A DNA stretch of 64,000 nt from Yersinia frederiksenii ATCC 33641. GTDB taxonomy: Bacteria; Pseudomonadota; Gammaproteobacteria; Enterobacterales; Enterobacteriaceae. The notes under the pieces were generated by a model, which was given only the letters and a program-made list of their open reading frames with translations, did not search any database and was not told where the DNA came from. The DNA lies in the NCBI RefSeq assembly GCF_000754805.1, contig NZ_KN150731.1:2281886-2345885 (forward strand), given 5' to 3'. The position numbers and the translations under genes are program-made. Shown here one piece after another: positions 48,327-51,027 of the stretch. How positions within the stretch are numbered: position 1 is the first letter of the stretch; every line of letters starts with the position of its first letter.

Positions 48327-48461
48327 CACACCTCTCCTTTGCCGACTCTGTCAATCGCTTAACCTGTTCTAGTGACAAAGACGTATCTCTATCACAAATT
48401 TTAATGAATCTTGTAACAAGAGCGCTTACATTTGCTATGTTGTTGCTTGTATGATGTATGG

Positions 48462-48701
48462 CAGAATCCTTAAAACCTGCGATTCCATTCGAAATCGAAA
48501 TAATAGGCCCTAAGTAATTCGAGTTACACGAAGGCGGCAACTGAGCGAATCCCCAAAAACTTACATTGGTAAGTGACTGGGGTGAACGAATGAAGCCAAC
48601 GAACATGCAACTTGAAACATGACGGGTATCGCAGGTTAACGATTTCCCTGGTGTTGGCGCAGTATTAGCGCACCCCGGCCTCGGTCGGGGTTATTTTTTT
48701 T
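48462..48701 (+). ncRNA. arcZ: ArcZ small RNA, interrupted by an ERIC element
   Basis: The 3' part at 48641-48701 matches E. coli ArcZ almost base for base: gatttccctggtgttggcgc, then agtatt-agcgcaccccgg and a terminator with eight Ts. This 3' fragment is the processed regulatory form that pairs with rpoS and other mRNAs with Hfq. It is convergent with arcB, as in E. coli. The 5' half differs: an ERIC element occupies 48503-48629. A promoter-like TATGAT at 48450-48455 with TTACAT 18 bp upstream would start transcription near 48462, giving 240 bases, or about 113 without the ERIC, close to the 121 of E. coli ArcZ. The 5' boundary is inferred. Confidence 0.82.
48503..48629. repeat. ERIC element inside arcZ
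   Basis: A 127-bp copy with the core gcgaatccccaaaaacttac and taagtgactggggtgaacga, ending gacgggtat. It lies between the putative arcZ promoter and the conserved arcZ 3' domain, inside a 10-bp inverted repeat (48474-48483 / 48628-48637). Confidence 0.87.
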
Positions 48702-51027
48702 CAGCTTCCGCAGCCCACTCACGTAGCACCTGAACATCATTACGCCATTCTGATTTTAATTCATCGACCCAATCTTGCACGTTGTCCCACCAAGCTGGCA
48801 GTGTCGGTGTCTGAATTTGCTGTGCAAGCTGTTGGATATGACGCAAACCAACCGAACCCGCGGCCCCTTTAATCTTATGCGCCTCTTCAGTAATGCCCTT
48901 TTGATCCCGCGCAGTCATATTTGAATCCAATACCGCCAAATAACCCGGCATCATTTGTTCAAACATTTCCAGGCTTTGATGAATCAATTGTGGGCCAACC
49001 AAATCGATATATTGTTCCAGCATCGCAGTATCAAGTAACGATTCATGGGTTTGCATCACTTTATGTTCCTGTTTTTTAGCGGAGGAAGAGGGCTTCTGAT
49101 CCCAGAATTGCTTAATCATGGCCGTGAGTGCAGGCACAGACAACGGCTTGCTCAGCACGTCATCCATCCCAGCATCTAAATATTCTTTTTTGTCCTTAAG
49201 GACGTTGGCGGTCAGTGCCACCAATGGCGGCAGTGATTGATTATCGTAGTTCGCCCGAATCTGGCGGGCGATATCCAAGCCGCTCATATCGGGTAACTGA
49301 ATATCCAGCAGCACTAAATCAAAATCATCGGGCTTGAACATCGCCAGAGCATCGTGGCCATTCATTGCCACCTCAACACTGTTACCCAGTTTCTCCAACA
49401 CAGAGCGCGCCACGATGACGTTCAACTCGATATCTTCCACCAGCAAAACATGAAGGGCGGGCAGTGGCATGTCGTCGCCTGATGGCGTGGTAGAAACCGC
49501 ATGCACGGCTGGCGCCTTGATGGTCAGGGTAAAGCATGAACCCGCCCCTTGGGTGCTTTTCACCGTGATATCCCCCCCCATACTTTGGGCCAAACGCTTA
49601 GACACTGCCAGACCAATACCGGTCCCCGTTGCCGGACGCCCACCGTTGCTGTCTTTAACCTGATAATACATGGCAAAAATCTTGTCCTGCTCATCTTCAG
49701 GAATCCCCATACCAGAGTCTTCCACTTCAAAAATCAGGCGGTCACTTCCTTCACGTCGCACCCGCACCACAATTTTACCTTGCTGAGTAAATTTCACCGC
49801 GTTGCCGATCAAATTCCACAGAATCTGGCGCAAGCGGGTGCCATCAGTAATAATCTTCTCTGGCAATGGCAACTGGGGCTCCATAATAAACTTCAGCCCT
49901 TTTGGCTGGACCAGCAAGCCAGAGAGGTTTTCCAGATCTGCCATAAAACCTGTAAAATCAATCGGTTGATTATCCAACTGAACTTTACGACGTTCTAGCT
50001 TATCCATCTCAATGATATCGTTAAAAATATTCCCAAGGGTGATGGCACTGACGTGAATGGTTTTCAGGTATTTCAGTTGTTCGCTGTCTAATTCAGTGTC
50101 TAACAGGATGCGGCTTAGGCCTACAATGCCATTAAGTGGCGTACGCAACTCGTGGCTGATTGTTGAGATGAAAGTGGTCTTATCCCTACTGGCATTCTCC
50201 AGCGCGTCCTGATAGCGCTTACGCTCGGTTATATCGCGGCCAAACCCCATCAAACCATGCCGCTTGCCGACGCGATCATAAAACGGCACTTTGCGCAGTT
50301 CAAAACAGGCTTTCCGGCCATCGGGATAAACCAGCCACTGTTCATAGGTCAGAGAAACGTTGTGGCGGAAAACTTTTTCATCCGTCTCCATGACTTTTTC
50401 AGCAATATCAGGTGCATAGACATCTTTCGGGGTCAGCCCGACCAACTGTTTCTCACTTTTACCAGTCAACAACTCCATTGCTCGGTTGCAGCCAGAAAAC
50501 TCATTGGCTTCATTACGGTAATAAACCAGATCCGGGGAAGCATCCAAAAAAGATCGTAATAAGGCGGACTGCTGCCCTAGCTCTACCTGAGCCTGCTCAC
50601 GGTGACCCATTTCTTCTTTTAGCTTGTCGACCACTTGCAGGTGAGCTTTCTCCGCTTTCTCACGTTCAACAATTTCCTGATTAAGTTGAGCAATATTTTC
50701 AGTCAGTTGATTATTCAGCTCCAAATCGCGATGACGCATGACTTCAAGTTTATCAACCAAGCGCGACAAGCGCTGACGCGACTCTTCCAACTGCTCAACC
50801 ACGACCGACAAGAAATACACGGCCCACGGAGTTATCAGAAGACCGAAGAAAATTGAGCGCACTAAATCGAGAGTTTCAACCGAGCCACTCAAGACGAATG
50901 TCACCGCCATCTGAACCACCATGGCCAGCAACACCAGCACAGACGCCAATAGCAGTGAGAAGCGAACCAGCCCTAACTTAACCATTAAATCAACGTAATA
51001 CTGGGCTAATACCCTGATTTGCTTCAT
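48691..51027 (-). CDS. arcB: Anaerobic sensor hybrid histidine kinase ArcB
   Basis: The protein has 778 residues, the same as E. coli ArcB. It senses the redox state of quinones and phosphorylates ArcA. In order: two membrane segments near residues 22-46 and 58-78, a coiled-coil linker with leucines, a PAS domain (LDASPDLVYYRNEANEFSG), HisKA with STISHELRTPLNG (His292 equivalent), HATPase (DTGMGIPEDEQDK-like EDSGMGIPEDEQDKIF), receiver LVLLDIQLPDMSG (Asp576 equivalent) and Hpt EEAHKIKGAAGSVG (His717 equivalent). Its 3' end overlaps the convergent arcZ gene by about ten bases. Confidence 0.97.
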   Translation of the reverse strand: MKQIRVLAQYYVDLMVKLGLVRFSLLLASVLVLLAMVVQMAVTFVLSGSVETLDLVRSIFFGLLITPWAVYFLSVVVEQLEESRQRLSRLVDKLEVMRHRDLELNNQLTENIAQLNQEIVEREKAEKAHLQVVDKLKEEMGHREQAQVELGQQSALLRSFLDASPDLVYYRNEANEFSGCNRAMELLTGKSEKQLVGLTPKDVYAPDIAEKVMETDEKVFRHNVSLTYEQWLVYPDGRKACFELRKVPFYDRVGKRHGLMGFGRDITERKRYQDALENASRDKTTFISTISHELRTPLNGIVGLSRILLDTELDSEQLKYLKTIHVSAITLGNIFNDIIEMDKLERRKVQLDNQPIDFTGFMADLENLSGLLVQPKGLKFIMEPQLPLPEKIITDGTRLRQILWNLIGNAVKFTQQGKIVVRVRREGSDRLIFEVEDSGMGIPEDEQDKIFAMYYQVKDSNGGRPATGTGIGLAVSKRLAQSMGGDITVKSTQGAGSCFTLTIKAPAVHAVSTTPSGDDMPLPALHVLLVEDIELNVIVARSVLEKLGNSVEVAMNGHDALAMFKPDDFDLVLLDIQLPDMSGLDIARQIRANYDNQSLPPLVALTANVLKDKKEYLDAGMDDVLSKPLSVPALTAMIKQFWDQKPSSSAKKQEHKVMQTHESLLDTAMLEQYIDLVGPQLIHQSLEMFEQMMPGYLAVLDSNMTARDQKGITEEAHKIKGAAGSVGLRHIQQLAQQIQTPTLPAWWDNVQDWVDELKSEWRNDVQVLREWAAEAEKK

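Follow-up and report, generated by a model that had tools for sequence, protein, structure and literature searches.

Regulation of ArcZ targets in Salmonella and E. coli is carried out by the processed 3' form of this small RNA only, as described in PMC5222698 and PMC11331407. Processing relies on a single RNase E cut, directed by Hfq and mapped in Salmonella at GA/UUU (PMC5222698, in part). In Y. pestis, Northern blots revealed two ArcZ isoforms, and the structure was called strikingly different from that of E. coli (PMC6635623, in part). A review of ArcZ aligns the Y. enterocolitica gene, and its text does not contain the word 'insertion' (PMC11331407); no report of an ERIC inside arcZ was recognised among the matches listed in our literature searches. 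As excerpted, the same review presents a long 5' ArcZ in Pantoea ananatis, which shares with the locus reported here a precursor enlarged on its 5' side, but is not described there as an ERIC. The best precedents, as far as the excerpts of PMC2229807 go, appear to be the palindromic elements that Rickettsia carries in its genes for tmRNA and RNase P RNA (Ogata 2002, cited therein). These are likewise mobile palindromes tolerated inside a conserved RNA gene, although they belong to another element family, sit in other RNA genes and occur in unrelated bacteria.

In this study we focus on the arcZ locus of Yersinia frederiksenii ATCC 33641, within a 64,000-nucleotide stretch of DNA (the window). 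Genes are ordered mtgA-elbB-arcZ-arcB, as in E. coli; arcB occupies 48691-51027 on the minus strand, and arcZ is convergent with it, its 3' end near 48700 overlapping the end of arcB. The conserved 3' region, with its RNase E site, seed CCCUGGUGUUGGCGC and Rho-independent terminator, identifies the gene as ArcZ (SraH/RyhA, RF00081), with which it shares the location beside arcB, the promoter block, the GA/UUU site, the seed and the terminator. It differs from the family by a 127-bp insert in the 5' half and by an Rfam score under the gathering cut-off: the match at 48584-48685 reaches 58.8 bits (E 8.1e-12) for a gathering score of 66 bits, and the 5' half of the model was aligned onto the end of the inserted element. 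The native stem sequence of Yersinia ArcZ also differs from that of E. coli ArcZ. On the plus strand, the putative maturation site lies at 48641-48645, with the cut expected between 48642 and 48643 from the sequence and the Salmonella mapping (PMC5222698, in part). Rfam alignment and a terminator scan place the seed and the terminator (stem 48672-48691) within a processed ArcZ spanning 48643-48700. The presence of the site predicts maturation by RNase E and Hfq to a 55-60 nt form, and all 3' features needed for processed ArcZ are intact in this genome.

The insert, at 48503-48629 (plus strand), is an ERIC with terminal TA-type ends. A search of the genome with the 341-bp arcZ region returned at least 31 matches, namely the locus itself and 30 over parts of the ERIC segment; the element is thus multicopy, about 127 bp long, and resembles dispersed copies. 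It folds as a long RNA hairpin (z -2.83, with 1 of 200 shuffles as good). In its 127 bp, TA-type ends, palindromic hairpin and many genomic copies it agrees with the ERIC/IRU/RU-1 MITEs of enterobacteria, and differs from them in lying inside a conserved small RNA gene and in a right TA duplication that lacks its A.

The ERIC is flanked by a left arm, AACCTGCGAT (48474-48483, plus strand), and a right arm, ATCGCAGGTT (48628-48637, plus strand), which are exact reverse complements over 10 bp. Around random 127-bp stretches of the window, arms of at least 10 bp in comparable geometry occurred in 46 of 20000 draws. The original prediction of an ERIC copy inside arcZ between perfect 10-bp arms is thus borne out by the exact complementarity, the Rfam match and the multicopy matches; its reading of the arms as a perfect 10-bp ArcZ stem holds for the pairing, but only eight of the ten pairs are native (AACCTGCG/CGCAGGTT, as in most empty-site species). 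Indeed, the first two bases of the right arm, 48628-48629, are the end of the ERIC and form the two innermost pairs, the last of which also needs a left-arm T found in this genome alone among 25 Yersinia species.

We found arcZ in all 25 of these species, and their alignment revealed 13 full ERICs, two internally deleted remnants and ten empty sites. All 15 ERICs and remnants lie at the same TA, on the 3' side of the stem's loop, in one orientation. Three of the 13 full copies carry a further internal stretch of about 17 nt, and the remnants, in Y. aleksiciae (G002, L042) and in G015 (L041), are about 22 bp long, with about 100 bp of the hairpin missing between deletion ends that are identical in the alignment. 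In the empty alleles, a loop of about 20 nt is enclosed by AACCTGCG and CGCAGGTT, some alleles showing single changes in these arms; read from the alignment, these arms and short loop are the native ArcZ stem. The site of Y. similis is empty. Only nine of the 25 species score over the Rfam cut-off: the ten with empty sites minus the terminator-truncated Y. similis, and none with an ERIC or a remnant. A search relying on this cut-off would not call arcZ in the others, which serves as a warning. Y. similis (G022, L055) lacks about 15 bp of arcZ, including the 5' half of the terminator stem.

Outside Yersinia, a BLAST search with Yersinia ERIC copies (E 1e-4) found no ERIC upstream of arcZ in 88 loci with a recognisable seed; 91 loci were taken, three without an exact seed were dropped, and L289 (no seed) and a weak match in G318 were left out. 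Two loci, L330 (G247) and L343 (G338), have arcZ 5' regions of about 230-240 nt from a -10-like box to the seed, where about 80 is usual, and contain no ERIC; the box was called by pattern and may be wrong for L343.

Whether the ERIC forms part of the RNA depends on where transcription starts. Upstream of it, the promoter block ATCACAnATTTTAATGAATCTTGTAACAAGAGCGCTTACATTTGCTATGTT (48391-48441, plus strand), with TGTAACAA at 48412-48419, TTTGCTAT at 48431-48438 and a probable -10 TATGTT at 48436-48441, varies hardly at all across the 25 Yersinia species. It corresponds to the E. coli arcZ promoter TGTAACAA-N10-TTTGCTATCTT, with the same arrangement, TGTAACAA-N10-TTTGCTATsTT. By homology with the E. 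coli start, transcription would begin near 48448. An alternative -10, TATGAT (48450-48455, plus strand), would set the start at 48462. Homology favours the 48448-type start, and the ERIC lies downstream of both positions. No promoter-like site was detected in 48330-48760 by a simple sigma-70 consensus scan, so that the upstream start rests on homology.

The arms also bear on this question. The left arm is kept in the 25 Yersinia species save for single substitutions, and the seven native stem pairs counted in the consensus structure are broken in none of the 13 filled species, where the arms stand about 140-165 nt apart. In the related filled genomes G007 and G018, one native pair reads A-U instead of G-C, with both sides changed; the empty-site G005, which branches elsewhere on the tree, shows the same double change. 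Against this, that pair, the innermost native one, is disrupted in two of the ten empty species (G004 and G019) and is G-U in one. Retention of the left arm would be unexpected in an RNA starting after the ERIC, and argues against such a start. Transcription beginning inside or directly after the element, which would leave it outside the RNA, is therefore very improbable in our view: its one point of support is that the sigma-70 scan leaves an upstream start unconfirmed, and the same scan gives no support to a start inside the ERIC, whereas the upstream block is kept in 25 of 25 Yersinia species and common to E. coli, and the left arm is kept across the ERIC with a co-varying pair. The same two features, block and arm, disfavour both a start between 48629 and 48641 and a conserved arcZ 5' half lying elsewhere, which the original prediction had named as findings that would overturn it. 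Given the conserved upstream block and the continued pairing of the distant arms, the transcribed ArcZ precursor very probably includes the ERIC; this precursor is predicted from promoter homology and the terminator to span 48448-48700 on the plus strand (or from 48462).

Subtracting the 127 bp leaves a precursor of about 113 nt from the 48462 start, as originally proposed, and about 126 nt from 48448. Precursors of empty-site species measure 112-117 nt with a 48462-type start (101 nt in the terminator-truncated G022) and 130-131 nt with a 48448-type start (three species).

We consider it fairly likely, from the sequence comparisons, that the ERIC is a MITE tolerated, not adopted, in the disposable 5' hairpin of a global small RNA. 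A Yersinia ERIC, a non-autonomous MITE, would have integrated at a TA within the small loop of the arcZ 5' hairpin. Transcription would start upstream, lengthening the precursor from about 115-130 nt to some 240-253 nt. Within it, the ERIC would fold into a long hairpin on top of the native stem. Cleavage by RNase E, with Hfq, would still take place at GA/UUU, 13 nt after the end of the ERIC, and release an unchanged processed ArcZ of about 58 nt, and the ERIC-bearing 5' part would be discarded. The insertion would be tolerated because it enlarges a loop in the discarded part and leaves the stem, the cleavage site, the seed and the terminator intact. The ERIC is probably either without effect or tunes maturation mildly.

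Folding was compared between 13 filled and nine empty species (the two remnants and the terminator-truncated G022 being left out) with both types of start; in the predicted fold the native stem forms and the ERIC hairpin stacks on top of it. Mean predicted stem probability in filled versus empty species was 0.94 versus 0.86 with one start and 0.73 versus 0.79 with the other. The stem is weakly predicted in the filled G023 (0.51 or 0.04, depending on the start), and in its empty sister G019 (0.09 with the second start). Predicted accessibility of the seed was similar in filled and empty species, at 0.66 versus 0.62 with the 48462-type start (p 1.0) and 0.49 versus 0.48 with the 48448-type start (p 0.64), so the models indicate no effect of the ERIC on the seed with either start. 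For the RNase E site, predicted accessibility was 0.20 in filled versus 0.45 in empty species with the 48462-type start (p 0.23), and 0.36 versus 0.47 with the 48448-type start (p 0.033). With the latter, a large drop was seen in two of four filled/empty sister pairs, namely this genome and Y. alsatica (G000/G003, 0.11 versus 0.48) and G018/G004 (0.16 versus 0.50); there was none in G006/G010 (0.47 versus 0.46), and the order was reversed in G023/G019 (0.25 versus 0.03). The models thus suggest a possible effect on the cleavage site that depends on start and species; this, like the weak stems of G023 and G019, counts against the tolerated-insertion reading.

These predictions bear on a second reading, in which the transcribed ERIC noticeably tunes ArcZ without having been selected as a module, by altering access to the site or Hfq loading, by exposing the long hairpin to RNase III, or by yielding a 5' by-product that lives longer. 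The long predicted hairpin, a precursor about doubled in length and the lower predicted site accessibility in two of the four sister pairs with the 48448-type start are consistent with it, as is the RNase III processing of Correia MITE transcripts reported in the excerpted review PMC10969869; against it, predicted seed accessibility is similar in filled and empty species with both starts. We regard noticeable tuning as rather unlikely, and retain a tolerated insertion as the preferred explanation.

The original prediction had gone further, proposing that the ERIC became the 5' processing module of ArcZ, selected for changing maturation by RNase E. Several observations are in line with adoption. 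The hairpin is kept in 13 species, where 96.7% of cells are paired across the whole precursor structure, native stem and terminator included. Five pairs show double changes, a number reached by 6 of 500 shuffles; this count again includes native stem and terminator, and ERIC hairpins generally may show the same. Moreover, 13 nt separate the end of the ERIC from the expected cut, one of the two starts gives a lower predicted site accessibility (p 0.033), and reviews, as excerpted, describe ERIC effects on Yersinia mRNA levels via an RNase E site (PMC2229807, PMC10969869). Against adoption, no difference is predicted at the site with the other start (p 0.23), and the ERIC is absent from close sisters. 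This genome carries it and Y. alsatica does not, and the same holds for Y. proxima versus Y. artesiana and for Y. thracica versus G019. Y. alsatica (G003) is the nearest genome compared, with 93%, 93% and 96% identity in three genes. Local trees (elbB, arcB) and species trees agree on these close sisters, the latter being built from genes that we take, from their translated starts and gene order, to be maeB and nqrA, with or without gltB. On the species tree, ERIC presence requires seven equal-cost changes, for a shuffle mean of 8.0, and 30% of label shuffles are as low; presence is therefore scattered.

Sequence divergence also fails to set the arcZ copy apart. In four filled sister pairs, the arcZ ERICs differ at 27 of 507 sites, about a third of the divergence at arcB fourfold sites in the same pairs (133 of 779); ERICs as sampled thus look conserved, which counts against the tolerated-insertion reading. 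Fourteen dispersed orthologous ERIC pairs (1, 8 and 5 from three of these species pairs) have a mean divergence of 4.3% (range 0-10.6%), a value biased low by their choice for similarity to the arcZ ERIC, in a comparison that recovered only one arcZ pair itself. The arcZ copy has thus diverged at roughly the rate of other ERICs, with no measurable extra constraint. With presence scattered, sisters with and without the ERIC keeping stem, site and seed, no constraint beyond that of other ERICs and mixed folding results (seed unchanged, site lower with one start), the processing-module proposal is not upheld, and we hold adoption to be quite improbable. A tolerated insertion remains the reading that we favour. 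A mobile palindrome in a conserved global small RNA gene, with natural filled and empty sister alleles, offers a ready test of whether inserted repeats alter small RNA maturation.

The origin of the arcZ ERIC was addressed with a maximum-likelihood tree of the 13 arcZ copies and 58 dispersed copies, of which 40 came from listed matches, the most similar ones for the most part, and 18 from this genome. Twelve of the 13 arcZ copies grouped with two dispersed copies, with a support of 15, and G006 was placed elsewhere; the pairs G008 and G011, G013 and G014, and G012 and G023 each had a support of 100. In AU tests with fuller searches, neither monophyly of all 13 arcZ ERICs (p 0.369) nor that of the 12 (p 0.525) was rejected. 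In an earlier AU test on fast trees, p was 0.060 for the 13 together and 0.021 for the 12; this test was set aside as unfair, the unconstrained fast tree itself being excluded (0.036). Furthermore, none of the 15 arcZ copies has the A of the right TA duplication, insertion at TA being judged against the empty sites; among dispersed ERICs, a crude pattern found TA at the right flank in 39 of 58, TAT without the A in six and other sequences in 13. The same missing A in all 15 copies, together with monophyly that is not rejected, favours a single insertion.

With remnants scored as present, a single gain requires six losses, a scheme without loss 12 gains, and equal costs seven changes. A single insertion combined with the scattered distribution thus requires repeated loss. 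The alignment of the 25 Yersinia species revealed no obvious excision scar at the empty sites, and clean loss by simple deletion therefore looks unlikely. We can only guess that the ERIC was lost through replacement by recombination with an empty allele, the simplest route to repeated loss. In a comparison chosen after inspection of the data, leader and loop differ at 19 of 184 positions between empty sisters and filled (three pairs) or remnant (one pair) ones, and at 5 of 185 between filled sisters (four pairs; Fisher p 0.003); the higher difference fits such replacement. The flanking-gene trees (elbB, arcB) showed no swap among these sisters. More speculatively, arcZ in Yersinia could be an on/off structural allele, with the ERIC spreading and being replaced from species to species at a single TA, the filled precursor maturing differently (with a less open site) or giving a stable ERIC-tipped 5' RNA, and a MITE tuning a global stress small RNA; we consider this unlikely.

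Other ERIC copies were noted in the course of this work. Near-identical copies of one ERIC with similar flanks are found at L160, L162, L164, L165, L166 and L371, in four further species and G007 (L165), and are far more conserved than the arcZ ERIC. The G007 copy, the one whose surroundings were read, lies between genes that we take to be dapF and a DUF484-like gene. ERICs are also matched by the Rfam family V_AS5 (RF02818, 'Vibrio RNA AS5'), at 48503-48626 of the window and at 1009-1132 of L371; the scores, 32 and 46 bits, fall short of the family's cut-off of 96, and isrH also weakly matches at L371. V_AS5 may be an ERIC-type repeat.
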